A model generated the notes under the pieces. The model was not told the DNA's origin and did not search any database. It saw only the letters and a list, made by a program, of their open reading frames with translations. A DNA stretch of 59,842 nt from a virus, in IMG/VR virus record IMGVR_UViG_3300025132_000006, positions 1 to 59,842 of that record. One strand, 5' to 3'. Shown here piece after piece: positions 9,473 through 54,060 of the stretch (its first letter is position 1; each line of letters starts with the position of its first letter). The position numbers and the translations under genes were made by a program.

Positions 9473-10330
9473 ATGGCTTCATATGGTAAAATAGCACAAG
9501 CTCAAAAAAGAGTAGTAGACTCATCTTCTATGATTTCAGATAGAAGCAGTTTAATAGAGCATCAAGCTAAAATGGATAGTAATAGTGAAGTATTTGGCTA
9601 TGCTAATCAAATTTTATCTAGTTTAGGTACAGTGGCGGCTGGGTTTGATGCAAATAAAGAGTCATATCAAAATTTATCTACTGGTGCAACAGAGGCAGGT
9701 GTTGAGGGTATTAAAGAATGGGATGAGTTATCATTCGGAGATAAAACTAAAATAGGTTTTGGGTTAGGAAAAGATGCAACTGCAATTGAAGATTTAGACT
9801 CAACTTATTCAACAGATGAAGGTCATTTTAGCACAGCTAGTTTGATGGAAATAGGAAGAAAATCAAAAGCAGGTACTTTACAACCAAGCTTAGCAGGACC
9901 AGATGGTAAAAAACAGAGTGTTTGGAGTATATATGGACAAGATTCATCAGACGCAGACGGAACAATTATACCCGCAAGTGGTAAAGCACAATATTTAAAT
10001 AAAAATGATAACGAAAAATCTGATAGTAAAGGTTTTTTAGGGATTGGAGATGGAGTAAATCAAACTGGAAATCTTTTAAAAGCAGGCGGAGAAGCTATTA
10101 AAAATATGAGTGGTGAAGGAAGTTTACTTGAAAGTTTAGGGAAAACTGTCGGAGGTGCAACTAAGGCATTAGGCATTACAGATGATAAAGGATGGCTTCG
10201 GGGTACTAATAGTAAATGGGGATTTAAAGTTGGTGAGCATGTTGGTTTTGATAGAGATTCGAGTCCGTACAACCTTTCAAATATGTGGGATAACTATAAA
10301 AATAAAAAACAAGTAGCGTCAAATGATTAA
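9473..10330 (+). CDS. Internal virion (ejection) protein candidate
   Basis: This 285-residue protein has AGGG upstream of its ATG. It contains a short hydrophobic Gly/Ala segment (about residues 45-58) and Gly-rich middle and C-terminal stretches (GGEAIKNMSG, KTVGGATKALG). It has no signal peptide or enzyme motif. It opens a block of six consecutive genes of increasing size before the transcription convergence. In podoviruses this position holds proteins packaged in the head and ejected with DNA. In the 58 bases before it there is only a 13-codon open frame (from 9424), which I do not call. Confidence 0.55.
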   Translation: MASYGKIAQAQKRVVDSSSMISDRSSLIEHQAKMDSNSEVFGYANQILSSLGTVAAGFDANKESYQNLSTGATEAGVEGIKEWDELSFGDKTKIGFGLGKDATAIEDLDSTYSTDEGHFSTASLMEIGRKSKAGTLQPSLAGPDGKKQSVWSIYGQDSSDADGTIIPASGKAQYLNKNDNEKSDSKGFLGIGDGVNQTGNLLKAGGEAIKNMSGEGSLLESLGKTVGGATKALGITDDKGWLRGTNSKWGFKVGEHVGFDRDSSPYNLSNMWDNYKNKKQVASND

Positions 10331-10871
10331 TTTTAGAAAAAGATTAAGACCTCATAAAACCAAGTCTGTGAAAGACAAGTCGTCAGATGATGACGAGGTT
10401 GAGTGGGTTCAAGCAGCTGTAGCGGTTGCTGGTTTAGGTCTTTCTCTATGGGAAAAACACGAACAAGGCAAAGCTGATAAGCAACTTAAAAAGAGCTTAC
10501 AAGCTAAACAATCTCAAGTAGGCTCAGCTATGGGTGGTGTAGTAGACACTCTAGATGCTTCTTTAGGTTTATTTAAAGATAGAAAAGACGAAGATAAAAA
10601 GATTATGGGTGATAATTTGACTACTAAATTAAAAAATGATTTAGACCAAGTAAGAGATAAAGGTAGTTCTTTTGCAAATACAGGAACTGATAATACTATG
10701 GTGGCAAACATTGATAATAATCTATGGAGTGGTTATAATCAAGGTACTTTAAAGTTAGATAGGCAAGAAGAAAATGCTAAATTAGGTGCATATTCTACTG
10801 CATATAAAAGTAATGCTGATTTAAGAACACAAATGAATGAGCTTGAGTCTCAAATAGAATCGTTAAGCTAA
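10323..10871 (+). CDS. Internal virion (ejection) protein candidate with hydrophobic helix
   Basis: The start overlaps the previous gene by eight bases. The 182 residues have a basic N-terminus (RKRLRPHKTK), an acidic patch (SSDDDEVE), one hydrophobic helix (residues 28-43, WVQAAVAVAGLGLSLW) and a long polar helical region with an Asn-rich break. A membrane-inserting helix in a small internal protein fits the class that forms the DNA-ejection channel (compare T7 gp14 in role, not in sequence). The family is unknown. Confidence 0.55.
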   Translation: MINFRKRLRPHKTKSVKDKSSDDDEVEWVQAAVAVAGLGLSLWEKHEQGKADKQLKKSLQAKQSQVGSAMGGVVDTLDASLGLFKDRKDEDKKIMGDNLTTKLKNDLDQVRDKGSSFANTGTDNTMVANIDNNLWSGYNQGTLKLDRQEENAKLGAYSTAYKSNADLRTQMNELESQIESLS

Positions 10872-12241
10872 TGAATAGAAAACAAAGAAGAACATTGGGG
10901 GCAGTAGCTGATTTAACTACAGTGCTAGATAGTTTATATAGAATAGAGCATGAGAAAACAAAAAGTAAAGAAAGAATAGCTCTTCAAGATATTCGTGAGT
11001 CTGCTAATACAAAAAGGCAAATATTAAGAGATAAGGCTCAAACTAAATTGACACAAGATAGAGATGAAGCTCAACATAGAAGGTCATTATTAACAAAATA
11101 TGACCCACAAGATATATCAATAGATACAACAACTGGAGAATGGTTACCTAATGATGGAGCAGTTAGTAGAACTATTAAAGAAAAGAAGCAAGATTTAATG
11201 TATGGATTAACAGGGCTGAAGCTAGATTATGATAGTCCTGATATGTCTATGTATCAAGAAATATTACAATCATCAAATAATGCAAATGAACCTTCTTGGG
11301 AAGACGACCCTACTCCAGATGCTTTTACTCAAAGAGATATACCTCAATTAAATCAAAAAATATATGATGAGTATGAGAAAAAATATGGTAAAGAAACATT
11401 TTTCAATGAAAGTGCAATTAAAAATGTAATTGGAACTAGTACTAAAGCTCGTATAGGTAAAGATATAATGACTACAGCTGAGTATAATACTATGCATAAA
11501 GGCTTGGCTCAAGAAGATGTATATAGAGACCAAATTACAACTAATGCTAACACTCGTATGGGTGATGCAATAAAACAAGAATTAGCCGATAAAGACTATA
11601 TTAAAGAAACCTATCAAGAATCTCCTTTTAGTCGTGCTTATGTGAAAACCGAATTAGGAACGACGCAAGAGAGAGAAAATTGGGCATCTAGCAAAGAACA
11701 ATTATTTAAAGATTTAGAAAATGATGGTGTATCAGAGGCTGGGATGGTTCAATATCAAAATGCTATAAATCAAATATTTAATTTTAATAACGACCCTCGT
11801 GAATTTTTAAGTGCTTTTAAAAGGTGGGATAGACCCTCTAGAGATGGTGGAATGAGTATTACAGAAGATATTTATAATAGATTAGGTTTAACTAAAACTT
11901 CTTATATAGGTACAAAAGATTTAATTGAAGGTAGAAATGAAAAAGTTAAAGGAAAAAGATTAAAACCATTTGTTCAAGATATAGGTCAACCTAGAAAAGT
12001 TGATTTTTTTACTGAACAATTTGGAAACGAATCGAAGTTTATAGATATAGCATTAGATAGTGGTGCTATAGATATTATTAAAATAAGAAAGAACCAATAT
12101 AGTATAAAAGTTAAAAATAAAAATGATTTTCAAAGAGTAATGAAAACTTGGATAAAAAATGCTGAAAAATATCCAAAATTTAGAGAAGCTCTTCAAAGAT
12201 TTAAAATGTTCACAGAGCAAGGCAATATAGGGTTTGAATAA
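10871..12241 (+). CDS. Virion-associated helical protein, unknown
   Basis: This 456-residue charged, mostly helical protein begins MNRKQRRTLGAV and has an N-terminal basic coiled coil (residues 20-75). No catalytic motif is evident. It is joined to both neighbours by one-base TAATG overlaps, so it is coupled in translation with the surrounding ejection-protein candidates. The same operon and codon style as the 3,059-residue gene suggest a shared particle. Confidence 0.5.
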   Translation: MNRKQRRTLGAVADLTTVLDSLYRIEHEKTKSKERIALQDIRESANTKRQILRDKAQTKLTQDRDEAQHRRSLLTKYDPQDISIDTTTGEWLPNDGAVSRTIKEKKQDLMYGLTGLKLDYDSPDMSMYQEILQSSNNANEPSWEDDPTPDAFTQRDIPQLNQKIYDEYEKKYGKETFFNESAIKNVIGTSTKARIGKDIMTTAEYNTMHKGLAQEDVYRDQITTNANTRMGDAIKQELADKDYIKETYQESPFSRAYVKTELGTTQERENWASSKEQLFKDLENDGVSEAGMVQYQNAINQIFNFNNDPREFLSAFKRWDRPSRDGGMSITEDIYNRLGLTKTSYIGTKDLIEGRNEKVKGKRLKPFVQDIGQPRKVDFFTEQFGNESKFIDIALDSGAIDIIKIRKNQYSIKVKNKNDFQRVMKTWIKNAEKYPKFREALQRFKMFTEQGNIGFE

Positions 12242-13245
12242 TGAGTGATAAGAATAAACCTCAAAATATGCAAACTTTTTTTACATCAATGCTTGATAGT
12301 GCTTTTGCAGATACTTCCGATGGTAAATTGGGTGCGCAGTTATTATTAGATAATCAGCCTCCTAAGAAAAAGAAAGTTATAAAAGACACTACTAGTGTAG
12401 ACATTGAAAAAAAATTAGGTGGAGTAACAGGTTTATATGGTAAAATATCTAAATTTTTAGATGTTAATCAATTAGCAGTAGAAGCTGAAGAGTATATGAC
12501 AAGTGGGGGAGATTTAGCTAAAGAATGGTCTCCTGATACATGGGCTAGTGATAATTTAAATTTTAGAGGATTGGATAGCCCATATAGAAATGAAGCAATT
12601 AATATGGCTAGAGAAAGAGTTGAACAGCCTGGGTTTAAAACATATTTTACAGACAGAAGTAAAGAGGGTGCTTATAGCATTGCAGATGATTATTTTTATA
12701 ACTTAGCCTTAACTGATGTTTATCAAGGTGCTTATAATGAAGCAAAAAAAGCTCGACCTTTGGATATTGGCGATGAAATAGAAAGAAGTATAGGATTAGA
12801 GGTTCACAGGTGGGATTCATATAAACCTCGTTTAGATAAATGGGTTAGTAAAGAAGATATGGAAACTTTGACAGGACTAGCAAGAGAAAAAGCATCTGGT
12901 TGGGCGAGTTCATATAGAAAAGATTTAAAAACAAATATTAAAGGGACTGTTGACCAAATTAATAAAGGTGAGGTTTCTAAAAAAACTGGAATTTTAATTG
13001 ACTCATTAAATGATATGTTAAATAAAACAGAGTCGTTACAAACTCTATACAATACTAAAGAAGAAATACACTATGTACAAGGTGCAAGTGGAATTCAAAA
13101 TCCTGATGTAGATAAAATATTAAAAAGAATTGAAACTAGAACAAGAGCTAATTTAGAATCAGCAGGAAAACAAGCATCTAAGGTTTATGACCCTGAACTT
13201 ATTGGACATAAAGCATTAATAAATGCTACTAAAACAATTAAATAA
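12241..13245 (+). CDS. Virion-associated protein, unknown
   Basis: This 334-residue protein is helical and charged, with a short disordered N-terminus containing PPKKKK near residue 40. I recognise no domain. It starts at a TAATG junction and ends two bases before the giant 3,059-residue gene. It is a likely accessory or chaperone-like partner of the ejection proteins, inferred from synteny only. Confidence 0.5.
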   Translation: MSDKNKPQNMQTFFTSMLDSAFADTSDGKLGAQLLLDNQPPKKKKVIKDTTSVDIEKKLGGVTGLYGKISKFLDVNQLAVEAEEYMTSGGDLAKEWSPDTWASDNLNFRGLDSPYRNEAINMARERVEQPGFKTYFTDRSKEGAYSIADDYFYNLALTDVYQGAYNEAKKARPLDIGDEIERSIGLEVHRWDSYKPRLDKWVSKEDMETLTGLAREKASGWASSYRKDLKTNIKGTVDQINKGEVSKKTGILIDSLNDMLNKTESLQTLYNTKEEIHYVQGASGIQNPDVDKILKRIETRTRANLESAGKQASKVYDPELIGHKALINATKTIK

Positions 13246-13247
13246 TA

Positions 13248-16200
13248 ATGTCAGATATAAATAGCCTATTAGACTCGTTACAACAATCTATTGACGAAGA
13301 TTATCGTCATTCTATAACTCCTAAACCTTCTACTACGAATAGAAGTCTTCACAAATCATTAGATAATTTACAACAAGAAGAACTTCAAGATAGAACATCA
13401 ATTCAAAATCAAAGACCAACAGATGCTCCAAAAGGAACATTTGGAAGTCAATTTATATGGGGTGTTGCTGAATCGGCTATGGTTGCACCTGGTCTATGGG
13501 AATCACTAGGTAAGCAAACTGGAATTGCTCCAAATATACAAGAAGGAGATATAAGAAAATCTTTAGGAGGAGTAAAATGGGATGATGCTACTCAATTAGG
13601 TAAGGTTGGTCATGTATTTGGCGCTGGTGTAGGTATGTTAGCTCCTTTTGGTCTTGCAGGTAAACTTGTTGGTGGAGTACTTAGAGTTGGTGGGAAAGTA
13701 ATTCAAGGAGGACAAGCTTTAATGAAGTCCACTCCTTTCTTAGCAAGAGCCGCTTCAAAAGAATTAATAGAACGAGTTGGTAAAGTTACAGGTAAATCAG
13801 CTACTACCTTAAGTAAAGAAAATGCTAAAACTATAGTCAATTTAGCAGAAGATGTTATATCTAAACCATCAGTTTTAAATAAAATTAGAGGTCTTAAGCA
13901 TCATGATGAAATAGTCAAAGGACTAGGTCAAATTGAAATGAGAAATGTTATTAAGAATTCTATTCCTGATATTGCTGATGATGCAGTAGATGATATTTCT
14001 AGAATTGCAATTGAGGCAGTAAGTCATCATTCTGTTAAAAATGCACACGCTATACTTGAGTCAGCGGCAAGAGGCTTAATGAGTTTAGGTGGGAAAAGGC
14101 AAACTGGATTACCAACAGATTTATTAGCTGCTTATAGTTACGATGCACTACTTGGTGGTGTATTTGGATTTGGTAAATACGCTGCTGAACAATATTCTAA
14201 ACAAGCATGGCAAGATGAGACAGGTGTTCTTGAAGCAGGAAAATTTATACAAGATACAGATTGGTGGGAAGGTGCTAATCATATGTTAGAAGAAGGTGCT
14301 TGGTTAGGACTTTTAGGACCTGTTAGATATATAGCTGGTGGTACTGGTTCTCCATTGATAACTGTCCCTAGATTCTGGAATAAGAATCCCGGAAAAGTAA
14401 ACAAAATAATTGGCGGATTAGCTAAAAATTGGAAAAAAATTGATAATATAACTCCAAATGAAGCTAGGGCTACTATGCAAATGATGGATTCTGTGAGTAA
14501 TGGTGCAATAAGGCATTTTATAGATAAAGGTAAGATGCCAATTGTTAGTAAAGCTATGGAAAAAAATCCTTCTGCTTGGTGGCAATATTTTACAAAAAAT
14601 GGAGATGAAGCGATAGGTGCTTTAAATGAAATAAGAAGTACATTTGTTAGGAATGCACCTAGAATACTAGCAGGAGAGACTTTAAAAGATTTTGCTTATA
14701 GTTTACCTAGAATGGGAATGGGTGCATTTACGATGAATCTTCCTGTAATTCATGAGACATGGAAAAATGCTAAAGGAATGCCTACTGGAGAAAGATTTAA
14801 ATGGACTGCTGAAAATTCATTTGGAGAAACATGGGCTGATATAGGTGCTAATATAACAGTTGCTATGTTAATGACTCGTTCTGGGAGAGCTATACGAAGA
14901 TTTGATAAACCTGCATCTGGCTCTGCTAAAGACACTGGTATGCAATTAGGAATAAGTCGTGGTGAAATGCAAACTCATTTAACAGGAGCTGATAGATATA
15001 TAAAAGAAGTTCAAGCTGGTTTAGAAACTATGGGTCTTGCACCTTCTCAGCGACATCAATTAGCAATGAGATATTCACAACATAATGAATTTCCAGGTGA
15101 GTATGGTAATAGATTATCACAAGCAATTACTGAAACAGATGCTACATTTAAAGGAATAAATGAAAAAATAAACGAAAGAAGCTTAACTAAAGAAGAAATA
15201 TCTAAACTAGATATAGAAAAAATAGAATCTGAAGGTAGGCATATAGATATACAAGAAGCTTATAAGAAAGCTGCTAAAGAAAGAAATCTTAGTTCTGAAG
15301 AGATTGCTCAATGGAATAAAGATTTAGAAATTGCTAAAGCAGTTGAAAGATTTATGGAGTCTGAGTTAATAACTGGTGAGATTACTCATAAACCAATGAG
15401 TCCTAACGAAGCTAGAGAGTATGTTAAAGATTTAGCTAATACAAAAATTGATGGAGTTTCATTAACATCTGAAAACGTAATGCCTTTATTAAGAAAAGCT
15501 AGAAATCATGCAGTCGCTAAAGCTACAAAAGAATCTTATAATGAAATTATAATGACTTATAAAGATGTTGCTGAAGCTTTAGGATTAGAAGTTGTTTATG
15601 ATAAACAAAGAGGCGTTATATATGCACCTGAATCTTTGCAATTACCAATGCTTGGAAGAGTAGACGTAGCTAATCAAAAAAGCAGAGATAGAAATGCTAT
15701 GACTGAATCGTTTAATCATATACATAAATTGGGAATTCAATTAGGATGGATAAAGCCTCAAAAGAAAGTCTCATCAATGACAGCTGAAAATTTAACAGGA
15801 GAAGGTTATGATAAAGCTGTTAATATTTTTTCTGAAAGATTATTAAATCTTCATAAATATACTTATGGGCATGAGCATAATAGAGAAAGTTTAGAAGGTG
15901 GTCATAGTTGGAATGATTTTATGATGACATCTGATACTTGGCATTATGCTTATGGAGCAGGTAAAAGTTATTTACAAAGAGAGAATGTTAAATCTTTTCT
16001 ACGAGGTGATTATAAGAATGTAGATAGTCATTTAGGAGGAGATGAAATATCAAAATTTCATAGAGAATTAGAAAGTAGAATTGGTTCAAACTGGGTAGAA
16101 ATAAAAGACTTAGATAAGGTTACTAGCGATAAAAATGAGCAAAATGATATAAGAGCTTTTATTACAAACTTAAATAAAATTTATAGACTTGGCACTCCGT

Positions 16201-19200
16201 CTGAAAGAATAGAATCAAAAACAAAAGAGATAGAAGGAGTTGCTGCTTCTGAATTAAAACAAAAAACAGAAGAGTTGTTTGGTAATGCTTTTTCAGATAA
16301 AGATGTTTTAGGTAGGCTAGAAAGTGAAATACTACAAGAGGCAGTAGAAAGAATAGACCTAAAAAATACAGACAGAACTTATACTAAGTCAACTGTTTCT
16401 TTATTGACTAACCCAGAGTTTGCTGGTGGCACTATTAATTCATTAAGAAGTATTAAAGATATTCATGCATTTCTTGACTCTATGGCTAAAAATGGTAAGC
16501 CTACTGAAGAAGTTGATATGTTAAAGCAATTTTATGAAAATTTACATAGAGCTATAGAAAAATCTGAAAGTGGAGTTATAAAATTTAACAAAGAAACTTT
16601 ACCTGTTGATGGTCTTGAAAATAATTTATATCAGGCATTAAGAGAAGCAGAGCATTATTCAAGGCAAAGTTCATTAGATGCTCTTATATATGGTTCTCAA
16701 GAAATATCCAATTCTTTAAATAAATTAGTATTTGATACAACAAAAGAGATAGCAACAATCGTTAATACAGATACAAATATGCCTGAGCAAAATAGAAAAG
16801 AACTATTTGATACATTATTTAAAACTCAAAGACTTGGTCAATCTTTAATAGACCAAATTTCTATTGCAAAACGAGAAGGAAATTTAGTTGCCTTAAATAG
16901 CTTAAATAAAAGAAAAGTAGATTTAGATAAAAGTTTAACAGAGCTTACAAGTAATATTCAAAGTAAAACTGCTCACGAAAGTTATCAACAAGTATTAGCC
17001 GATATGGCTAGGGTTCAAGGTGAAATAAATTCAAAGCCATTAAATCATAGTGAAATTGAAACTATTTTTAATGAAAGATTGCAATATGAAATGAAATCTT
17101 CTAAAGCTCCTTCTATAGAACCTCCGAATACTATATCTTTAAATCAATTTGAATCTAAATATTTTGTAAAAATGAGTGACTACATTTTAATGGAAAGAGC
17201 ATTAAATGAACCAATACAAACTGGTAATAGTGCTATAGATTTATTAATAACTGCAAAAAGAAATATTAAAGTTAATCTCGGTACAGAGAGTGAGTCTATG
17301 GTTGCAGATGCTATGAGAATATTAGATAAGGGTATAGAAAACTTAAAAAATTTACAAGGTAAAAAAGTTTTAGAGCCTAAAGAAATGGTTGATTATATTC
17401 GTAAACCTATGATGGAGTACATAAAAACTCAATTATTTTCTGCTCAAAAACTTGGAATACTTGATAATGAAGCATTTGCAAAAAGATTATTAGAAGTTGA
17501 TAGTGATTTAAATCAGATTATGACTCAAGCATTTTCAACAAAACAGTTAAGAAGTCTTGAATTTCATAAAGGAGGATTCCTTTTAACAAAAGAAACTGTT
17601 CCTAATACAGATAAAACTGGGTTTTTAGCAGTTGAAAAACAATTAGGCATTGAAGGTAGAATGTTTTTATTAAAAAATAGTGGAGTAGATGCTGAAGGCA
17701 ATAGATTTCAAAGAGTTAATAAAGAAATGCGTGAAAATATTGAACTTGCGTTATCTAGTGATGTTGGAGCGACTGTAGTAAATAGAGACGCAGAAGCAGA
17801 TTTTTATAGAACTCAAGACCCTAAAATTATTGAAAAAGATGCAGACTTAGTTTCGAATAAAAGAAAACTTCAATTAATAACAATAGATGAGGGTGTTAAT
17901 TTATTAGTTGAAAATTCTCCAGAAGTAATTGCAAATATTAATGCTAATTATACATGGGATGCCTCATCTAAAGGAAAAAATAGTGAGATAATGCAAACAC
18001 TAGATAGAATTTTAGTGGATGGAAATAACGCAGATAACTTAGCTTTAACAGAGAAATTTAGAAATCCAAATATGAAGGGTGAAGATATAGCTAGTGCAAT
18101 ATTATTAACTAGAGCTATTTCTGATAGTAAAAGTCTTGTTTCTGACTTTTTAAAGAATACTGCAAATGATAAATTATTAAAAGCTGAGTGGAAGCGTCTA
18201 AAGATGTTTGAACATAGAAGTGGCTTTACTGGAACTAAGGATAATGTAAAATTTGTATATGAATTATTAAGAGAAACTGTTCGTGAGGGTATGTTTAAAC
18301 ACCAACACAAGCTTTCTTTAGAAAAATTAGAACAAGTATTTGGCAAGAACGGTGAAACACCTTTGGATTTAGTTGTTATAAATGATGAAACTGGTCCTGT
18401 TGAGGTAAATGGTAAGATGAATTATAATCCATTTGATTATAAACAAGGAGTTGCTGCTAGATTAAAAAAACAACTTCAAGAGCAGCTTGATTTAAAATCA
18501 ATTACCCAAGAACAGTTAAATGAGACTATGGATAAACTAGCAAAAGATAAAAGCGAAGTAGATAGTGTCACATATTTAAATAAAGATACATTTCAAGCTC
18601 TTATGACTTTTCTTGGAGTCAAAGACCAAATGATAGAATATAGACCTGATGGAAGTGCTATAATTAGAGCAGGTGCTATTAAACCAGTAATTACTCATAG
18701 TGAAATTTCAAAAGACGGTAGTTTGTTAGAATTTATTTTAAAAACTTCTTTTCAATATAGTCCGACTGTTGAAGGGATAATGCCTAAAAATGTAAATGGA
18801 ATAGCTTTTAAGAGTGGTGCAAAGAAATTTAAGACTAGACAAGGTAAAGGGGAAATGGTAGATAGTTATATGGCTCCTGATAGAGTTCCTGGAGATATTT
18901 TAAAGAATGCTAGTTTAGATAGAAAATTAGATATGACTTTTGAAAATGTTGATATATCAAATAGCGTTGCTAGTATTCCTTTATCTTCTATAAACCTTAA
19001 ACAAGCCTCTAGTGAACATACTGGCTTAGTAGCTGCTAATACTGGTGTTCATTTTAATAGAAGAGGTATGGAAGGAATGAGGAAATGGACAGGTATTGAT
19101 AGAAAGATGAGCGATTTTGGTAGAACTCAGCAAGAAGTTTGGTTAAATCCATATAAAAGAACTGCTGTTGCAAAAGAATTATTTGGGTATAGTCAAGAGA

Positions 19201-22200
19201 CTGGCGACCCTTTTATGCTAAATACTGGTCTTGACTTTATATTAGAAAATAGAGGTGTGCTTGTTCAAGATTGGATTCAACCAGTTATTGAAAGAAGTTT
19301 AATAAGCCATCATTTAAGTGGTGGGAATATAACTGCTAGAAAAATTTATGAATCTGAGACTGCAGTAATGACTCCAGATTCAGGTGGACTTCAATTACCA
19401 TTTAGAACAAAATTAAATGGGACTAGAGCTGTTCAAAGAATTTTTGGAGGTTCAAGAATATCAACATTCTTAGGAAACAAGCTCGTAAAGTTTGATGGTG
19501 AAGTAAATAGACATAATGACCAAGCTAGTGATACAGCCGCTAATATTGTTAAGTTTTCAGATGGTTTAGAAGGTATATTAGTTCATGGTTTAAATAATAA
19601 AAGCAAGGCAAGTAAAGAAGCTACTTTATATGTAGATGGTTATATGGTTACTCCTGAAGGTAAAATATATGATTTAAGCACAGGCATGAATAAAGAAGTT
19701 ACCTTACCAGAAGCTCAAAGAGTTGAATATATAAATAAACAAAAAGAAGCAAATGAATTAGGTAATCTTTTAAAAGAAAAACTTAATTTAAAAGAAAATG
19801 GAACTGCTACAATGTCTCAAGCTATGGGAGAAGCTGAGAGTGTTAGAAATTCTTTGAAAAAAGGTGATAATAGAGGCATATGGATGGCTTCTATAAGTGT
19901 AAGACAACCTAGAAACCAAGCTGGTGATATGATTGTTGAAAAATTGGAAGGGTTTACTAGAGGTCAAGGCAACGTAAAAGAAACAAATAGTATAGATGCA
20001 ATTCAAACTGCTGATGCTGATTTTGATTTAGATAAAATTACAACGTACACTGCTTCTAATAAAGAAGTATGGGGAGAAGTTGCTAGATTAGCTGGGCATA
20101 CAACATTTAATTCAGATGCTGATATACAGAATTACATAGAAAGAGAATTTTCATCTTTTGATAGCTTTAGAGACCATAATAACAATATTCAAGAAACTGC
20201 TTTTGTTCGCTCTAGGTTTGTAAAACTACATCAAACAATGACTTATTTAAAAAATATGCTTGGTGGGAATAGTATTGCAAATTTTAGATACGGTAAAGAG
20301 TTATACTCTATAAAATTAAAACAAGAAACAAGTGAGTTTTTAAATACAGAAGCAATTTTATCTCAAATGGCTAAAATGTATATAGATGTATATAATAATA
20401 CTCCTCGAATTAATTCTAATTTTGTTAACCATGCAATGAGAAAATTATTTTTTGGCGAGAATGGAATGTTCCAAGTTAAAGTTATAGATAAAGGTAAAGA
20501 ATTAGATAGTGATTTACAACTATGGCATAAAGATGGTACAAATAATCCTTATGGAGATATAAATACTAATTTTATAGACGTTATTCAAGCAATAGAAGGT
20601 AGGTTTATTAGTCCACTTGGTCAATATTTACAATATAACAGAGGAGTTACTCAATTAGATAGTAATTTTCAAAGGTCTTCTAGTATTCAAGATTTTTCTG
20701 GTGCTTATGAAAGAACATTATATTCATTTAATGACAGAGTAAAATGGAATGGGACTGAGTCTAAAACAGATATATTAGATTTAACACCTGGTTTAAAGGC
20801 TGCTCAAGCTTATTTTAGAGACTCTTCTAATCCATATGATATTGGAATGAGAGAAATGAATAATCTTAATGCTAAAAAACATAAGGAAATAAATATTTTT
20901 GAAGGCGATATGGGTAAATTAGTTACTGCTATAGAAGAAGGGGTTATCGATACTGGAGATTATCAACAACAATATAGAAATGCAGTCAATAATGCATATG
21001 ATAAGTTTATAAAGAATCAATTTAATATGGCTGAAGTAACTGCTTTATTAAGAAGACAATATGGAGTAGAGTCGCAAATGAATAGTTTAGAAATGAGATT
21101 TTCTAGAATGAACATTAAAGAGACTCCTGAATATATGGCTTTAGCAAAAAAACAAGAACGACTTTCAGAAGCAGTTGAGGGATTAAGACAAGTTATGGGA
21201 GCTGGGAGAGATTTTGAAATAGCTAAAGGAAATGAATTTTTTGATGAAATAAGATTAAAAAAGAATTTTAAGGAAAAGGAATATGTAAATACATCTAAAG
21301 CACCTATTGTAGTTAGGTCTGGAGATGGAAGCATGAAAGAAATTATTCGTGGAGGAGAAAGAAATCAACAGCGAATAGGGAAGAAAGATAGAGTATTTAA
21401 GCATGGTAGGAGATGGGAGTTTGCATCTGAAACTCAAATAGGGGCAGATATAAATAATATAGCCTTTGGAATGTTGCCATCTTATAATAGAGGTGGTGAT
21501 ACTTCAATAATGAGTGAAGGTCAATTTAAAAAATATCAAGATTGGAGAACTAGGCTTGAAATTAATTTAAGAGAAATTGAGAATAGTTTAACAGATAAAA
21601 GAGGGAGACAAGTAACTATGTTAACCTCTCAAGAAAACTCAATGATAACTGCTCAAAAAATGAGAGAATTGAATAATTTCATTCAAGAATTTAATTTTAA
21701 TGATGGTACAAATATACTTGATAAGTGGGCAATCGTTCATGCATTAATGCAACCAAAGGTAGATAAAAATGTAATGTTAGCAAAGCCAGTTACTGATGGA
21801 AAAGGCGTGAAAGGAATGTCTTTTGGAAATAAAGTATATATGCATAATTATGGTAGAACAGAAAAACTACTATGGGATTATTTAAATGAAGTAAGAAGTA
21901 CACATCACGAAAATTTTAAAGACTCAGGTATTAGTTCAGTAGAAGCAGCTGAGTTTATGAGAGCTATTATACAAAATCAAAAACAAGCATTATTAATACA
22001 TGAAAGACCTTATGGAGATATTAGAATGAATGTTGATGGCTTTTGGACTGAACCATCTAGAATTACTGAAAGCAACCATTTTAAACAAACTAATTTACAT
22101 GCAGAAGTTCATGAATTAGCTAGGTCTGCTAACGAACAAGTAAAAATGGCAGCTAATACTTTAATAAGATATTCAAGAGGAGAAGGTGGATTAGTAGACC

Positions 22201-22427
22201 CAATAACATTATATAAAGCTCAAAGAACTCTTGAAACAGAAGGTAATATACCAGCTGGTGAAACATTTATGATGGTTCAAGCAAAAGAACCAAATGTGGC
22301 TTTTGGGAATATGAACCTAGAAGGAATAAAAAATAATATTAATTATAATAGAAGAACTGGGACAGAAGGTGTTTTAAAAGAAAAACCATCTCAGTACTTA
22401 GAAGATGCGATAAGGTGTTTACAATGA
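13248..22427 (+). CDS. Giant virion protein, candidate two-barrel RNA polymerase (DFDLD motif)
   Basis: The gene takes up 15% of the genome and encodes 3,059 residues. The N-terminus is polar, then residues 115-165 are Gly-rich and hydrophobic (GVGMLAPFGLAGKLVGGVL), as in proteins that cross membranes during ejection. Most of residues 400-1800 is charged helix. Residues 2256-2262 read DADFDLD. About 38 residues earlier lies RQP, the spacing and order of R-x-P to DFDGD in the active-site barrel of cellular beta-prime subunits. crAss-like phage virion RNA polymerases carry the variant DFDID. A Lys-rich FKSGAKKFK at 1854-1862 could be the lysine-bearing first barrel, though this is weak. I see no T7/N4-type polymerase motifs. 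A large polyvalent protein without polymerase activity is the alternative. Confidence 0.45.
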   Translation: MSDINSLLDSLQQSIDEDYRHSITPKPSTTNRSLHKSLDNLQQEELQDRTSIQNQRPTDAPKGTFGSQFIWGVAESAMVAPGLWESLGKQTGIAPNIQEGDIRKSLGGVKWDDATQLGKVGHVFGAGVGMLAPFGLAGKLVGGVLRVGGKVIQGGQALMKSTPFLARAASKELIERVGKVTGKSATTLSKENAKTIVNLAEDVISKPSVLNKIRGLKHHDEIVKGLGQIEMRNVIKNSIPDIADDAVDDISRIAIEAVSHHSVKNAHAILESAARGLMSLGGKRQTGLPTDLLAAYSYDALLGGVFGFGKYAAEQYSKQAWQDETGVLEAGKFIQDTDWWEGANHMLEEGAWLGLLGPVRYIAGGTGSPLITVPRFWNKNPGKVNKIIGGLAKNWKKIDNITPNEARATMQMMDSVSNGAIRHFIDKGKMPIVSKAMEKNPSAWWQYFTKNGDEAIGALNEIRSTFVRNAPRILAGETLKDFAYSLPRMGMGAFTMNLPVIHETWKNAKGMPTGERFKWTAENSFGETWADIGANITVAMLMTRSGRAIRRFDKPASGSAKDTGMQLGISRGEMQTHLTGADRYIKEVQAGLETMGLAPSQRHQLAMRYSQHNEFPGEYGNRLSQAITETDATFKGINEKINERSLTKEEISKLDIEKIESEGRHIDIQEAYKKAAKERNLSSEEIAQWNKDLEIAKAVERFMESELITGEITHKPMSPNEAREYVKDLANTKIDGVSLTSENVMPLLRKARNHAVAKATKESYNEIIMTYKDVAEALGLEVVYDKQRGVIYAPESLQLPMLGRVDVANQKSRDRNAMTESFNHIHKLGIQLGWIKPQKKVSSMTAENLTGEGYDKAVNIFSERLLNLHKYTYGHEHNRESLEGGHSWNDFMMTSDTWHYAYGAGKSYLQRENVKSFLRGDYKNVDSHLGGDEISKFHRELESRIGSNWVEIKDLDKVTSDKNEQNDIRAFITNLNKIYRLGTPSERIESKTKEIEGVAASELKQKTEELFGNAFSDKDVLGRLESEILQEAVERIDLKNTDRTYTKSTVSLLTNPEFAGGTINSLRSIKDIHAFLDSMAKNGKPTEEVDMLKQFYENLHRAIEKSESGVIKFNKETLPVDGLENNLYQALREAEHYSRQSSLDALIYGSQEISNSLNKLVFDTTKEIATIVNTDTNMPEQNRKELFDTLFKTQRLGQSLIDQISIAKREGNLVALNSLNKRKVDLDKSLTELTSNIQSKTAHESYQQVLADMARVQGEINSKPLNHSEIETIFNERLQYEMKSSKAPSIEPPNTISLNQFESKYFVKMSDYILMERALNEPIQTGNSAIDLLITAKRNIKVNLGTESESMVADAMRILDKGIENLKNLQGKKVLEPKEMVDYIRKPMMEYIKTQLFSAQKLGILDNEAFAKRLLEVDSDLNQIMTQAFSTKQLRSLEFHKGGFLLTKETVPNTDKTGFLAVEKQLGIEGRMFLLKNSGVDAEGNRFQRVNKEMRENIELALSSDVGATVVNRDAEADFYRTQDPKIIEKDADLVSNKRKLQLITIDEGVNLLVENSPEVIANINANYTWDASSKGKNSEIMQTLDRILVDGNNADNLALTEKFRNPNMKGEDIASAILLTRAISDSKSLVSDFLKNTANDKLLKAEWKRLKMFEHRSGFTGTKDNVKFVYELLRETVREGMFKHQHKLSLEKLEQVFGKNGETPLDLVVINDETGPVEVNGKMNYNPFDYKQGVAARLKKQLQEQLDLKSITQEQLNETMDKLAKDKSEVDSVTYLNKDTFQALMTFLGVKDQMIEYRPDGSAIIRAGAIKPVITHSEISKDGSLLEFILKTSFQYSPTVEGIMPKNVNGIAFKSGAKKFKTRQGKGEMVDSYMAPDRVPGDILKNASLDRKLDMTFENVDISNSVASIPLSSINLKQASSEHTGLVAANTGVHFNRRGMEGMRKWTGIDRKMSDFGRTQQEVWLNPYKRTAVAKELFGYSQETGDPFMLNTGLDFILENRGVLVQDWIQPVIERSLISHHLSGGNITARKIYESETAVMTPDSGGLQLPFRTKLNGTRAVQRIFGGSRISTFLGNKLVKFDGEVNRHNDQASDTAANIVKFSDGLEGILVHGLNNKSKASKEATLYVDGYMVTPEGKIYDLSTGMNKEVTLPEAQRVEYINKQKEANELGNLLKEKLNLKENGTATMSQAMGEAESVRNSLKKGDNRGIWMASISVRQPRNQAGDMIVEKLEGFTRGQGNVKETNSIDAIQTADADFDLDKITTYTASNKEVWGEVARLAGHTTFNSDADIQNYIEREFSSFDSFRDHNNNIQETAFVRSRFVKLHQTMTYLKNMLGGNSIANFRYGKELYSIKLKQETSEFLNTEAILSQMAKMYIDVYNNTPRINSNFVNHAMRKLFFGENGMFQVKVIDKGKELDSDLQLWHKDGTNNPYGDINTNFIDVIQAIEGRFISPLGQYLQYNRGVTQLDSNFQRSSSIQDFSGAYERTLYSFNDRVKWNGTESKTDILDLTPGLKAAQAYFRDSSNPYDIGMREMNNLNAKKHKEINIFEGDMGKLVTAIEEGVIDTGDYQQQYRNAVNNAYDKFIKNQFNMAEVTALLRRQYGVESQMNSLEMRFSRMNIKETPEYMALAKKQERLSEAVEGLRQVMGAGRDFEIAKGNEFFDEIRLKKNFKEKEYVNTSKAPIVVRSGDGSMKEIIRGGERNQQRIGKKDRVFKHGRRWEFASETQIGADINNIAFGMLPSYNRGGDTSIMSEGQFKKYQDWRTRLEINLREIENSLTDKRGRQVTMLTSQENSMITAQKMRELNNFIQEFNFNDGTNILDKWAIVHALMQPKVDKNVMLAKPVTDGKGVKGMSFGNKVYMHNYGRTEKLLWDYLNEVRSTHHENFKDSGISSVEAAEFMRAIIQNQKQALLIHERPYGDIRMNVDGFWTEPSRITESNHFKQTNLHAEVHELARSANEQVKMAANTLIRYSRGEGGLVDPITLYKAQRTLETEGNIPAGETFMMVQAKEPNVAFGNMNLEGIKNNINYNRRTGTEGVLKEKPSQYLEDAIRCLQ

Positions 22428-25400
22428 GTTGGATTACTTGTAATAAATTATTTAGACGTAAAGGCGGTATGTCTGATTCTAAAAGAAAAAAATTATCTGA
22501 TAGATTGCGTTCAGCAGTTGCGTCATATGAAAGCAATCCAATGTTTATAAAAACTAAGTATGCTAATGATACTGAAACTATGTTGTGGCTTTGGAATAAA
22601 TTTACAAAGAAAGAGTTGGATTTTGATTTTAATCCTATAAAAATGTCTGATGTTAGAAAATTTGAACATGGTATAAAATGGTTTGAAAAAAATCTAACAA
22701 ACAAAGCTAATGGTAAAGGTAAATTTTTTGATATGTTTAAAGTAGGAGATGCTTTAACAAGAAAATTTCCAGAGCTTCAAGCATTTCAAGAAAATCTTTC
22801 TCAAGAGACAGGTCATTATCGTAATGTTACTATTAAAGGCAGTCAACTATCTGACGAAATTGTAAAAGGATGGGTTCACCTTGCTAAACAAAAAGGTGGT
22901 GATGTGAAAAAATTAAGATTATTAGAAGGTAATCTTGAAAAAGAATTATCAAAGCCTAAAAATCTACAAGACAAAACATATATAAATACAACAGAAAAAG
23001 AAATACAAAAATTTCTAAATGAAGAAAGTTCTAGTAGAATTTTTAGAGATTTTAATTTAGTTATGAATGGCTTAGATGTAGAACAACTAAATGTTGGAGG
23101 TGGAGACCGATATGTACACGATGGTAAAGAATATAATAAAGAGCGTTATAACTCAGAAGATATGAAAGTATGGAGAACTATTGATTCCAATATGAAAGAA
23201 ATGAGAACTATGGGTGTCAAAGTTCTAGGGCAATCAATTAATAAAGTTTTAGCAACTGCTAAAATACTTGATAAGAGAGAACAAGGTACAAGGAATTTAG
23301 AAGCTACTGTTAGAAATGCAGTAGATATGATAAAAAGATTAGAGTTCCAATCTGAAGTTGATGCAGGTCCTGGATTAACATCTAAAGAAATGAAATGGTT
23401 TGATGAGTTAAGTGCCTTTGGTTTTAGGAAAGGTGAAGATGCAGCTATATTAAAAAAATATATGCCATTATATGTAATAGGTGCTACTAAGTTATTAAGA
23501 CAAATGTCATTAGAAATGAGAAAGAATACTATTGACAATTCTTCTTTAGACCAAGTATTAAAAGACCAAATTGATGGATTTAGAAGAACTAGTACTAGGA
23601 TTTTAGAAAGAGGTAATATACAAGATGGTAGATATACTATAGACCCAGCTTATTTCTTAAAAAAATATGTTCATGATGTTTCTACATTTAATTTTACAAC
23701 ACACTTAGAAAATAGTTATTGGAAGCACGCAGAAAAACTACTTGATATGCATGCCAAAGCTAAACATGACAACGATAAAGAAGTTATGAATTTAGCTGAA
23801 AGTCTTATTAAACAAATGAATGAGATGAAAGATGTTGTTACTAGCGTAGACCCAAATAACGATACTATGATTAATGATTTAAGTAGATTAATGACATCCG
23901 TTACATATTTAAGACTTATGGGTGGAAACTTAAGGTCTGCTCTTAGAAACGGTACTCAGAGAATATATGAGGTAATGGAGTTTGGAGTTGGTGCTTCATG
24001 GAATGCTAGACAATGGAGAAAAAAAGCTGAAAACCAAGAATTAGTAAATAAACAAGCAAAAAGATTTGGATTAAGTTGGTATGTCAATGAAGGGGCTGGA
24101 TTACTTGGAAGAAGTCGTGATTTACCAATAGAACAAGCAACAAGAGGTGCTATAGCTGAATCTAATAGAGTTCCAGAAGGAATGAAAATAAACGAATTAG
24201 GTGAGATGGTAAAGTCCGATTCAGCAGTTAGGGGTATAACTAAAGGAACTGCAGATGTCGCTTCTTGGGTAGCAGGTAAATTAGGTAAAGCTCATACTAT
24301 AGTAGAGGATTGGAATAGAGCTGGGACATTTGGGACTGCATTCGCATTGCAATATCAAAAAATGCAAGTAGCTCCTAAACCTTGGTTAATGAAAAAGATG
24401 GGTTGGAGAAAGGGTCAAAAGACTCCAAGTGATGATGCAATAGAAAGATTTAGACAAAATAAAGCTGGTAGAATGGCTTATAATTTAACAACAGACTTAC
24501 ATTTTGAATACTCTAAGTGGGCTAAATCAAAAGCATTTGGAGGAGCAAGTGGAATGGCAGGAGCTGCTGGTCAAATAGGTGGACAGTTTATGCATTATAG
24601 ATTATCAATGTTTAATATGATGCAAAGATGGGTAAAAGAAGGTTTACTATCTATGAAGACGGGAGATTTTACAAGTGAAGAAGTTTGGAAACTTGCAAGA
24701 GCTGGAATGATTTTCTATTTAATTGAAGGAATGAGTATGGCTTCAAATATGAATTTAAGTCAATTAGCTCAAAACGATGTTGTAGATACTTTAGAAAAAA
24801 CATGGAATTTCTTTGCATTAGATAGAGATAATCCTGCAGAGAAAAAAGAACTAGACAAAGAGCTGTATGGTCAAGGTGCTTGGTCTTTTGCAGGTCCTAA
24901 TATATTATACGCAGCTAATATTGGCGAAGCAGCTGGTTTTTGGCATTTAGGTGAAAATAGTTATTTTAAGAGTCAAAACATAGTTGAGGGGAATGAAAAT
25001 TTTACTCGACAACAAAAATGGAAATCTAGAGCATTAATCAATAGCCAGCTTGCAAGATTTACTAGTTATACAATGCCACTTCTTGTTAAGAGGGGATTTT
25101 GGGACGCTGCTAGATTTGAACTTGGTCTTATGCCTGATAAAAAATGGAAAAATATGAGGGGTTGGATTGGTCATAATTTTAAAAAAGAAATTCCTTATAA
25201 ATTGAGAAAACAAGTTGCATTAACTGGTATAAGAAAAGATATTCAACGAGGGTTTAAGGATAGAAGTGTTCTTGATACTAGAGATATGTTAACTGATTTA
25301 GATGTTCTACAAGGGAGAATAACTCCATCACAATCTCTGAATCGTAGAAAACGGAGGACTACGAGAGGTGGATATAAAAATCAGAAAAATGTGATGGAGG

Positions 25401-25429
25401 CATTAACATTTATGGAATCTCTTCCTTAG
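22424..25429 (+). CDS. Large internal virion protein
   Basis: The ATG at 22424 overlaps the previous stop as ATGA; a GTG at 22415 would add three residues. The product has 1,001 residues. It is helical and basic, with an Ala/Gly-rich amphipathic segment (GGASGMAGAAGQIGGQFM, about residues 704-721) and a following hydrophobic patch that could touch membrane. The C-terminus is strongly basic (NRRKRRTTRGGYK). It is the last gene of the plus unit, and its stop overlaps the end of a minus-strand gene by four bases. By size and position it should be ejected with the 3,059-residue protein. No domain was recognised. Confidence 0.6.
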   Translation: MSWITCNKLFRRKGGMSDSKRKKLSDRLRSAVASYESNPMFIKTKYANDTETMLWLWNKFTKKELDFDFNPIKMSDVRKFEHGIKWFEKNLTNKANGKGKFFDMFKVGDALTRKFPELQAFQENLSQETGHYRNVTIKGSQLSDEIVKGWVHLAKQKGGDVKKLRLLEGNLEKELSKPKNLQDKTYINTTEKEIQKFLNEESSSRIFRDFNLVMNGLDVEQLNVGGGDRYVHDGKEYNKERYNSEDMKVWRTIDSNMKEMRTMGVKVLGQSINKVLATAKILDKREQGTRNLEATVRNAVDMIKRLEFQSEVDAGPGLTSKEMKWFDELSAFGFRKGEDAAILKKYMPLYVIGATKLLRQMSLEMRKNTIDNSSLDQVLKDQIDGFRRTSTRILERGNIQDGRYTIDPAYFLKKYVHDVSTFNFTTHLENSYWKHAEKLLDMHAKAKHDNDKEVMNLAESLIKQMNEMKDVVTSVDPNNDTMINDLSRLMTSVTYLRLMGGNLRSALRNGTQRIYEVMEFGVGASWNARQWRKKAENQELVNKQAKRFGLSWYVNEGAGLLGRSRDLPIEQATRGAIAESNRVPEGMKINELGEMVKSDSAVRGITKGTADVASWVAGKLGKAHTIVEDWNRAGTFGTAFALQYQKMQVAPKPWLMKKMGWRKGQKTPSDDAIERFRQNKAGRMAYNLTTDLHFEYSKWAKSKAFGGASGMAGAAGQIGGQFMHYRLSMFNMMQRWVKEGLLSMKTGDFTSEEVWKLARAGMIFYLIEGMSMASNMNLSQLAQNDVVDTLEKTWNFFALDRDNPAEKKELDKELYGQGAWSFAGPNILYAANIGEAAGFWHLGENSYFKSQNIVEGNENFTRQQKWKSRALINSQLARFTSYTMPLLVKRGFWDAARFELGLMPDKKWKNMRGWIGHNFKKEIPYKLRKQVALTGIRKDIQRGFKDRSVLDTRDMLTDLDVLQGRITPSQSLNRRKRRTTRGGYKNQKNVMEALTFMESLP

Positions 25430-40315: not shown

Positions 40316-40509
40316 TAAAACGTAAAGGTATTACAAAAGGTGAGATTGTAAAAGCAATTCAAGGATTAGTTAATCATACTCAAATAATGTCTTCTAGACT
40401 TGATGATATAGATAGAGTTGTTGGTGATTATATAACCTACAAAGGTGACATAAAAAAGTTTGGTGATTTTTTAGATGAAAAATATAAACCTAATGATGAA
40501 GAAGAATAA
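40312..40509 (+). CDS. Small protein before TerL, unknown
   Basis: The product has 65 residues: a helical body with LVNHTQIMSSRLDDIDRVVGDYI (a coiled-coil pattern; its core is SSRLDDIDRVV) and an acidic end. GGAGG lies upstream. It is joined to TerL by a TAATG overlap. It may be a coiled-coil partner of the packaging motor; the family is unknown. Confidence 0.6.
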   Translation: MIKRKGITKGEIVKAIQGLVNHTQIMSSRLDDIDRVVGDYITYKGDIKKFGDFLDEKYKPNDEEE

Positions 40510-42077
40510 TGGCTAATATAAATTCAAGAAATATAAGTCAAGCTGAAGAAGCATTGCAACTTGCACATAGTGACTTGATTGCATTTGGTAAATTATTTTT
40601 ACCTGACGATTTCCTGAGAAGTGAAACTCCTGCATTTCATTATGAGATGGCAGATTCTATTGATGACCATAATACAAAACAATTAGCAATTATTTTACCT
40701 AGAGGACATGGTAAAACTGTCCTTACTAAATGTTCTATTATAAAAGATTTCGTATTTACTGAAAAAGACGATATGCATTTCTATGCTTGGGTAGCTGCTA
40801 CTCAAAAATTATCTGTAGGTAATATGGATTATATCAAGTATCATTTTGAATATAATGAAAGTATTAAATATTATTTTGGTGCTTTGAAAGGAAGAAAATG
40901 GACAGAAGAAGATATAGAGTTAAGCAATGGGTGTAAACTCATTTCCAAGAGTAATGTCGCTGGGATACGGGGAGGAGCGAAATTGCATAGAAGATACGAC
41001 CTCATCATCCTCGATGACTTTGAACACGAACAAAACACAATCACGGCTGAAGCTAGAGCTAAAAATGCTAATCTTGTTACCGCTGTTGTTTATCCCGCCC
41101 TTGAGCCTCATACTGGTAGGCTTCGTGTTAATGGGACTCCTGTTCATTACGATAGTTTTATCAATAATCTTATTATTAATTACGAAAGAGCCAAAAAAGG
41201 AAAAGTTGATAAAGAGTTCTCTTGGAGAGTAATTACTTATAAAGCTATTCAAAAAGATGGCACTCCCCTATGGGATTCATGGTTTCCTATAAAAAAACTA
41301 GAAGAAAAAAAGAAATTCTACCAAGATTCAGGTACACCATCTAAATTCTATCAAGAATATATGATGGAGGTACAATCAGCAGAGGATTCTGTATGGTTAA
41401 GAGAACACATAAAAGATTGGGAAGGATATTATAGAAATGAAGAGGGAATCAATTATATTGTCATTAACGGCGAAAGTACTCCGGTTAATACGTTCATTGG
41501 ATGCGACCCAGCAACAGATATTGACACAAAAGAAAGTGATTTTAGTGTTATTATGGTTATTGCTGTCGATGTTGATAATAATCTCTATGTGCTTGAGTAC
41601 GAGCGACACCGAAGTATCCCAACTATTGGAGCTAAAAAAGTTAGTGGCGACTTAATGGATAAAAAAGGGGTCGTAGACTATATCATAGATTTGTACGATA
41701 AGTACAAATGTTCATCTGCGACCGTAGAAGATGTTGCTATGAACCGAAGTATATTTCAAGCTTTAAATGATGAAAGAAGAAGATTAAATAGATTTGATAT
41801 AGCAGTAATTCCTGAAAAACCTGGTGGCACTAATAAAAGAAATCGCATTTATAGTGGTTTAAGCGGTAGATTTAGCATGGGAACTGTACATATAAGGGAA
41901 AATATGTTTGATTTAAGCAATGAAATTGTTACTTTTGGTCCGAGAATGGCACATGATGACACCATAGAAAGCCTTTATTATGCAAATTTGCACTCATATC
42001 CGCCTAATTATCAACAAGATAAGGAAAGAAAGTGGATAAAACCAAAAAGAAAAGCTAAAAGCTGGATTGTAGCGTAA
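40509..42077 (+). CDS. terL: Terminase large subunit
   Basis: The product has 522 residues. The ATPase has Walker A PRGHGKT (64-70), Walker B LIILDD (165-170) followed by FEHE, and a coupling-type segment VNGTP (208-211). The nuclease has Asp333 in FIGCDPATD, Glu407 in TVEDVA and Asp483/Asp484 in MAHDDT. These are all the catalytic residues expected for a packaging motor that pumps and cuts DNA. The stretch 40920-41150 uses unusually many C-ending codons and has higher G+C than its flanks, a possible recombination patch covering Walker B. Confidence 0.93.
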   Translation: MANINSRNISQAEEALQLAHSDLIAFGKLFLPDDFLRSETPAFHYEMADSIDDHNTKQLAIILPRGHGKTVLTKCSIIKDFVFTEKDDMHFYAWVAATQKLSVGNMDYIKYHFEYNESIKYYFGALKGRKWTEEDIELSNGCKLISKSNVAGIRGGAKLHRRYDLIILDDFEHEQNTITAEARAKNANLVTAVVYPALEPHTGRLRVNGTPVHYDSFINNLIINYERAKKGKVDKEFSWRVITYKAIQKDGTPLWDSWFPIKKLEEKKKFYQDSGTPSKFYQEYMMEVQSAEDSVWLREHIKDWEGYYRNEEGINYIVINGESTPVNTFIGCDPATDIDTKESDFSVIMVIAVDVDNNLYVLEYERHRSIPTIGAKKVSGDLMDKKGVVDYIIDLYDKYKCSSATVEDVAMNRSIFQALNDERRRLNRFDIAVIPEKPGGTNKRNRIYSGLSGRFSMGTVHIRENMFDLSNEIVTFGPRMAHDDTIESLYYANLHSYPPNYQQDKERKWIKPKRKAKSWIVA

Positions 42078-52870: not shown

Positions 52871-54060
52871 TGGCTATAACCGCTAAAGTAACAAATGCTA
52901 GTTCTACTAAAGCAGTAGGCACTCAAAATGCTACTAAAACTCAAGATAGTTTTAATGTAAAAGCAGGGGCAATTTCAGTTGATTTAACTGGTAGAATTTC
53001 TACTGCTAGAAATGTTAATGATGCTTTACAACTATTAGATGCAAGAACAGCGGCTCAAACATCTGCTCCAAATCCGATGACTGAGGGAGATATATGGTAT
53101 AAGACAGATACAGATGAATTATATATAAGAACAGATAGTACTTGGAATGAAATAGTAGTTAGTGGAGTTTCAGGTACAATTTATGGAGGAACTGACACAA
53201 CTCCTTTAAATAGGAACACAATTAAAAGGTCTGCTTATAATGCATCTAATGTTCCCTCAAATAATAGTATTTTAGCAGGTGAACTTAATTTTATACAAGG
53301 AAGCAAAAAGCTTTATATTGGAAGGGAAAATGATGGTACTGGGACTATTGAAGCTTATCATATCCCTCTAGCAACAGATTTATTACCTAATTCTACTAGT
53401 TTTACATTATCAGATAATAGTGGAAATGCAAACGATAATAGTCAAGTACTTGCATTGGCTAGTGGAGTCGCAGGTAATGGATTAAGTCTATCAAATCACG
53501 CTTTATCGGTAAATCCTGATAATGATAGTATTGAACTAAATAGTGATGCATTAAGAATTAAACCTTCAAAAGTTTTAGTAAATGTAAGTGATGGTAGCAA
53601 TTCCACGGGGATTACATTAGGAAATACTGCCACATTCTCAGGAACTGCAAATGAGACAACTGTAGCAGAGAATAACGGAACGATTACTGTTGGTCTGCCT
53701 GATAATGTTACAATACAAGGTAATTTAACTGTTGGTGGGACAACTACTACAATTAATTCATCTACTGTAACTATTGATGACCCTATCTTTACATTAGGGG
53801 GAGATACAAATCCCTCTTCGGATGACAATAAGGACAGAGGAATAGAATTTAAATGGCATAATGGTAGCTCTCATAAATTAGGTTTTTTTGGAATGGATGA
53901 TAGTGATGGAAAATTTAAGTATATACCAGATGCTACAAATAGTAGTGAAGTATTCTCAGGTTCTGTTGGTAGTGCAGTATTCAACGATGTAGCAATATCA
54001 ACAATTAATGGAAACGCAGTATTTGATAGTAACTCAACTGTGGATGGTGGGACTTTCTAA
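52870..54060 (+). CDS. Fibre-like structural protein
   Basis: The product has 396 residues. GDIWYKTDTDELYIR is the common fibre strand pattern, and IQGNLTVGGTTTTINSS followed by TIDDPIFTLGG is a pattern well known in fibres of aquatic phages. The N-terminus SFNVKAGAISVDLTGRI may attach to the base. It ends in a TAATG overlap with the giant fibre, so the two products may form one fibre complex. Confidence 0.75.
   Translation: MAITAKVTNASSTKAVGTQNATKTQDSFNVKAGAISVDLTGRISTARNVNDALQLLDARTAAQTSAPNPMTEGDIWYKTDTDELYIRTDSTWNEIVVSGVSGTIYGGTDTTPLNRNTIKRSAYNASNVPSNNSILAGELNFIQGSKKLYIGRENDGTGTIEAYHIPLATDLLPNSTSFTLSDNSGNANDNSQVLALASGVAGNGLSLSNHALSVNPDNDSIELNSDALRIKPSKVLVNVSDGSNSTGITLGNTATFSGTANETTVAENNGTITVGLPDNVTIQGNLTVGGTTTTINSSTVTIDDPIFTLGGDTNPSSDDNKDRGIEFKWHNGSSHKLGFFGMDDSDGKFKYIPDATNSSEVFSGSVGSAVFNDVAISTINGNAVFDSNSTVDGGTF

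Follow-up and report, generated by a model that had tools for sequence, protein, structure and literature searches.

The DNA analysed here, hereafter the window, is the whole stretch of 59,842 nucleotides of IMG/VR record IMGVR_UViG_3300025132_000006, a virus contig which, by gene content, corresponds to a podovirus-like phage. Its genes include those for a P22-like portal, an SU10-type capsid protein, a terminase, a DnaB-like helicase and an endolysin, together with tail-fibre-like genes. An open frame of 1,936 codons (54033-59840, plus strand) continues past the 3' end of the contig and, in consequence, the genome is incomplete and 59.8 kb is a minimum; the original prediction had spoken of a 60-kb phage, a statement that is thus insecure. 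The features of interest are collected in Table 1.

Table 1. Features of the ejection block in the window, with their positions and the basis of each assignment.
Feature	Position	Strand	Basis or remark
Four presumed ejection proteins of 285, 182, 456 and 334 aa, all Cys-free	9473..13245	+	Upstream of the giant gene
Giant virion RNA polymerase gene (predicted), 3,059 aa	13248..22427	+	N-terminal ejection part of ~900-1,600 aa plus crass-type two-barrel core
Hydrophobicity maximum of the giant protein (residues ~120-145)	13605..13682	+	Hydropathy; candidate membrane-interacting segment (putative role)
RNA polymerase core (predicted), residues 1630-2480	18135..20687	+	AlphaFold model; best PDB match 6VR4
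First-barrel (DPBB-B) region with conserved K1812, K1832 and K1859	18681..18824	+	Barrel assigned by alignment
R-Q-P, residues 2219-2221, the R-x-P of DPBB-A	19902..19910	+	Translation, alignments
D2258-F-D2260-L-D2262, predicted catalytic metal-binding triad	20019..20033	+	Translation, alignments
D2380, invariant, after DPBB-A, where the bridge helix is expected (putative assignment)	20385..20387	+	Alignment
C3057 (third-last residue), sole cysteine codon of the giant gene	22416..22418	+	
Downstream partner protein, 1,001 aa, start ATG overlapping the stop of the giant gene	22424..25429	+	Position equivalent to crassvirus gp49
C6, sole cysteine codon of the partner protein (MSWITC...)	22439..22441	+	

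The motifs first claimed for the giant protein, i.e. RQP at residues 2219-2221 and DADFDLD at residues 2256-2262 of a 3,059-aa open reading frame, are indeed present in the translation. The combination R-x-P-(25-50)-DxDxD was looked for in all open frames longer than 900 aa, in 13 related contigs as well as in the window, and is found only in the protein of ~3,000 aa at this position. The gene had also been placed in an ejection-protein block, a label that fits, as the four proteins encoded directly upstream are Cys-free and the gene order is like that of other podovirus ejection modules.

When the giant protein or its core served as a direct query, no convincing match was obtained in Pfam, PHROGs, the PDB or deposited phages and, for this reason, relatives were reached via the terminase and a conserved tail protein. 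There are at least 599 terminase relatives in IMG/VR, whilst no close ones were found among 50,697 deposited phage records; in a search for the host, terminase relatives were absent from bacterial genome contigs. Whole contigs of these relatives encode, at the equivalent position, a protein of 2,700-3,250 aa that carries R-x-P together with D[FYWMH]D[ILFGA]D, some of these proteins being just ~16% identical over the core. The conserved tail protein, used as query, added about 30 contigs, and short-peptide scans using the fast-evolving polymerase core yielded few loci.

The terminase (40509-42077 in the window) is 76-97% identical among relatives, and the identity of the polymerase protein of those same relatives can drop below 20%. 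Compared with the packaging genes, the ejection module changes, by evolution or exchange, at a far higher rate. Contigs G010 (L085, L121) and G023 (L246, L247) were considered as phages with two polymerases and rejected: in each, the terminase, the capsid gene and the ejection module are all present twice, which suggests that the genomes of two phages have been joined in the contig. A more distant giant protein of 3,057 aa is encoded in contig G025 (L249:7676-16847, minus strand), with RNP...DKDAD at residues 1209-1252 and ~1,800 aa beyond. It contains zero Cys and is the last gene of its operon, with no long same-strand gene after it; in this sister lineage, the polymerase and the partner are perhaps fused.

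The core was aligned in 36 sequences from marine IMG/VR contigs, which are 13-67% identical to the window protein. D2258, D2260, D2262, P2221, D2380, G1790, K1812 and P2012 are invariant in this alignment. Regarding the R-x-P motif, the proline is kept in 36/36 sequences and R2219 in 33/36. K1832 and K1859 show full or almost full conservation, according to the alignment used, and D2250 and a few other positions are likewise invariant or near-invariant. Two expectations attached to the original prediction were thereby borne out: the Asp triad is conserved in all 36 homologues, and the lysines sought in the first barrel (K1812, K1832 and K1859) are conserved and aligned with crassvirus lysines. 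As read from the alignment, the pattern of conservation is that of a predicted active site, not of chance. Two homologues (L238 and L241) have other residues in place of R-x-P and a triad of the form D[NH]DGD, and retain the terminal Cys pair (see below).

The marine family was compared by HHalign with a crassvirus polymerase profile, built as a nine-member alignment with phi14:2 gp66 first. The match reached a probability of 98.3%, with an E-value of 1.5e-13 that refers to a one-against-one comparison, and was colinear over 741 columns; other settings gave 96.4% (E 1e-9, on the same one-against-one basis), and 11 control pairs gave 5.1% or less. The motifs coincide, with YRIPTxxxxS...GdTI...DFDID falling on xRxPxTxxxS...GN...DFDID, and the core is ~9% identical to the crassvirus polymerase in the profile alignment.

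An AlphaFold model of residues 1630-2480 built from the 36 sequences had a pLDDT of 75 and a pTM of 0.77, while an earlier model from 13 sequences had a pLDDT of 59 and gave weak RNA polymerase matches only. The original prediction had named phi14:2 gp66 among the proteins to compare. In a Foldseek search of 350,542 PDB chains, the structure of this very protein, the phi14:2 virion RNA polymerase 6VR4, was the best match (E 1.5e-8, probability 1.00) and the only chain at E<=0.001, followed in rank by the largest subunits of cellular RNA polymerases and by QDE-1. The TM-score to 6VR4, calculated over a partial model, was low (0.29), modest scores being as expected for a partial and divergent model. 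In a viral structure library, nameless entries rank first, followed by crassvirus polymerase proteins. The PDB fold matches are two-barrel enzymes, not the T7-type single-subunit polymerase of the Schitoviridae (N4). Going by the fold match of the model, the three Asp would converge in a double-psi barrel. Judged from sequence and model, the giant protein is almost certainly an RNA polymerase, and the two-barrel identity proposed for it is supported by the conserved active site, the crassvirus profile match and the 6VR4 fold match. Among the crass-type virion polymerases it represents a new member, in fused form, from a marine lineage without close deposited relatives.

Several known systems can be compared with this protein. 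The closest solved fold is that of the crassvirus RNA polymerases (phi14:2 gp66, 6VR4; crAss001 gp50), which share R-x-P, DFDxD and the lysines with it. In phi14:2 gp66, as in the protein of the window, DxDxD lies ~800 residues from the C-terminus, and these crassvirus polymerases and that of the window have the same terminal-Cys joint to the following protein. But, unlike phi14:2 gp66, the window polymerase has a fused N-terminal part, to reach 3,059 aa overall. By description, P23-45 gp96 is alike in being a two-barrel virion polymerase fused to a virion protein; nevertheless, its polymerase forms the N-terminal part of a tape measure of 5,002 aa, with DFDGD at residues 779-783 and no clamp (PMC10770324). 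Moreover, gp96 contains no cysteine, unlike the giant protein of the window. N4 (Schitoviridae) gp50 is, like the window protein, a very large injected polymerase (~3,500 aa) encoded beside ejection proteins in a podovirus, and the shortage of cysteine is shared as well, the N4 ejection block being cysteine-free. But terminal cysteines are absent in N4, and gp50 lacks the D[FYWMH]DxD signature of the window giant. In fact, N4 gp50 is a T7-type single-subunit polymerase, not a two-barrel one. Finally, QDE-1 (a eukaryotic RNA-interference polymerase) and the largest subunits of cellular RNA polymerases share the fold according to Foldseek, but they are remote and are not virion proteins.

The distribution of cysteine in the ejection block is peculiar. 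At the rate of the other genes, 31 Cys would be expected in the 5,317 aa of the block in the window, versus the 2 that are present. All of the 32 clusters of complete giant proteins, made at 70% identity, have exactly one Cys, located 1-11 residues from the C-terminus, and this residue is as conserved as the catalytic Asp. Since giant proteins contain on average 30.6 Trp and 44.5 His, the single Cys does not reflect a general lack of rare residues. In turn, all partner proteins found carry a single Cys, close to the start, and lack any beyond residue 46 of the open frame. The rule of facing cysteines was first seen in 15 modules and then held in new marine loci and in crassviruses.

In phi14:2, the trio of consecutive cargo proteins contains the following cysteines and no others: (i) C1797, the last residue, in g067; (ii) C3 and C2179 in g066; and (iii) C3 in g065. 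The same pattern is observed in crAss001 gp47 (C2339), gp50 (C5 and C2404) and gp49 (C5), with one additional internal Cys in gp50; together, the three crAss001 proteins amount to ~694 kDa. In other crassviruses some of these proteins are fused. A single chain comprising gp47 and the polymerase is encoded by the Suoliviridae and by Flavobacterium phage Fpv20, where the Cys pair is present at the second joint only; in the Intestiviridae, the polymerase and gp49 form one chain and the pair is present at the first joint only. The fused or unfused state was deduced from protein lengths, motif position and annotation, and the fusions independently give the order gp47-polymerase-gp49.

Terminal-cysteine pairs mark each unfused joint of the polymerase cargo chain in crassvirus loci L126, L127, L131-L137 and L260-L267. 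Across the gp47-RNAP-gp49 chain of 16 crassvirus genomes, a Cys located <=12 residues from the protein end is found at 41/41 neighbour-facing ends versus 0/31 other ends, a difference (Fisher p 4e-21) that is uncorrected for relatedness, the species compared not being independent. For this count, the crAss002 polymerase was taken to begin at an ATG (MSC...) lying within the annotated frame, 32 codons after the annotated start; cr114 and cr4 use a recoded stop. At profile level, no sequence homology was detectable between the partner and N-terminal part of the window giant and crassvirus gp49 and gp47, and the window terminase and portal gave no match to crassviruses by tblastn. As the flanking proteins lack detectable homology, the equivalence of the marine and crassvirus modules rests on order, size and Cys pattern.

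The pattern of cysteines suggests that the injected proteins may be coupled end to end through their facing terminal cysteines. Since Cys is present at both sides of a break and at neither where the proteins are fused, neighbours are best explained as joined by Cys, and a direct Cys-Cys bond between the C-terminus of the polymerase and the N-terminus of the next protein is rather probable. The simplest bond for facing cysteines is probably a disulfide; crassvirus virions contain disulfides between other proteins (PMC10172136). Specifically, it is here proposed that, in both the Crassvirales and the marine lineage, a pair of terminal cysteines dedicated to this purpose links each ejected protein, head to tail, with the next, a reversible disulfide taking the place of the peptide bond. 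The polymerase train pulled into the cell would then have a fixed order and a fixed stoichiometry, and the reducing cytoplasm would uncouple it. A probability of roughly 55% is given to this reading, which is drawn from sequence comparison.

One Cys per side could also join other ligands, and the terminal cysteines might jointly bind a metal or cofactor, or each might bind a third virion component (the portal or a channel protein), thereby marking docking ends. Two proteins of the cargo block in the Intestiviridae, Carjivirus gp47 (L131:3588-6161; C856 of 857) and crAss002 gp30 (L132:1393-3066; C550 of 557), have a lone C-terminal Cys and a next neighbour without a matching N-terminal one, as docking would allow. 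But the count of 41/41 versus 0/31 and the loss of both cysteines upon fusion point to the neighbour as the partner. As for a metal, two cysteines alone would bind it poorly, and the visible C-termini contain neither a conserved His nor another Cys beside the terminal one. Docking or metal binding is, then, unlikely, though it deserves consideration.

Coupling of this kind concerns proteins that travel in the particle. The polymerase of the window is, by analogy with its homologues and from its gene position, very likely virion-borne and injected: the phi14:2 and crAss001 polymerase proteins are present in virions (PMC10172136, PMC7886860), and early transcription by the phi14:2 polymerase is supported by work summarised in PMC10136315. 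Early transcription by the marine polymerase, in turn, is suggested by its homology to the phi14:2 enzyme and its gene position. In P23-45, a single phage has both an injected and a non-virion polymerase (PMC10770324), and the marine enzyme might, like P23-45 gp64, be made and used after infection. This is improbable for a gene located inside the ejection and structural block beside Cys-free proteins, as occurs with the crassvirus RNA polymerases found in virions (PMC10172136), and for a protein that is extended at its N-terminus and purged of cysteines, as would suit transit through a tail. The original prediction had seen no convincing sigma-type promoter, and this holds between 25.4 and 38.3 kb, where sigma-70-like, consensus-like sites are not commoner than in shuffled sequence (61 versus 68.8); their absence is weakly compatible with an injected polymerase. 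A promoter motif was sought in the window and none was established.

Cysteine purging suits proteins that cross an oxidising periplasm unfolded. From this it might be argued that the near-absence of Cys reflects only unfolding and the oxidising periplasm, the terminal cysteines being neutral leftovers. Certainly, the injected polymerases of N4, DSS3P2 and P23-45 have zero Cys, and cysteine-poor ejected proteins lacking a Cys pair occur in N4, a roseophage, P23-45 and T7, which weighs against coupling as well. Nonetheless, neutral leftovers would not persist at facing ends in sequences that are <20% identical, nor would they mark both joints of the three-part crassvirus modules yet vanish at the fused ones, which makes this explanation a poor one. 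Poorer still is the idea that the giant is a structural or ejection protein with an RNA polymerase fold and lost catalysis: although the evidence consists of folds and motifs, and two homologues (the D[NH]DGD types) lack the Arg of R-x-P, an invariant Asp triad and conserved lysines in homologues <20% identical would be unexpected without catalysis.

Under the favoured reading, the DNA-dependent RNA polymerase, a single-chain enzyme with two barrels and an ejection-protein part at its N-terminus, would be packed in the phage head. A disulfide with the following protein would be made in the particle or the periplasm. The polymerase and the other ejection proteins would then be threaded through the tail into the cell, entering as an ordered chain; upon reduction of the disulfide in the cytoplasm, they would separate on arrival. 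There the polymerase would refold and transcribe the early genes before the host RNA polymerase is needed. Reduced and non-reduced samples of crAss001 virions have already been analysed by mass spectrometry (PMC10172136).

A crass-type, very likely injected RNA polymerase is thus assigned to marine phages of wide distribution, apparently beyond the gut-associated order in which such enzymes are best known. The terminal-cysteine rule is more surprising than the polymerase alone. As far as searched, it is undescribed: no such coupling is described in the crassvirus structure paper, a crassvirus review, the N4 polymerase preprint or the results of literature searches. Reversible coupling, if true, would be a simple answer to the question of how a megadalton protein cargo keeps its order on leaving the phage and then comes apart within the cell.
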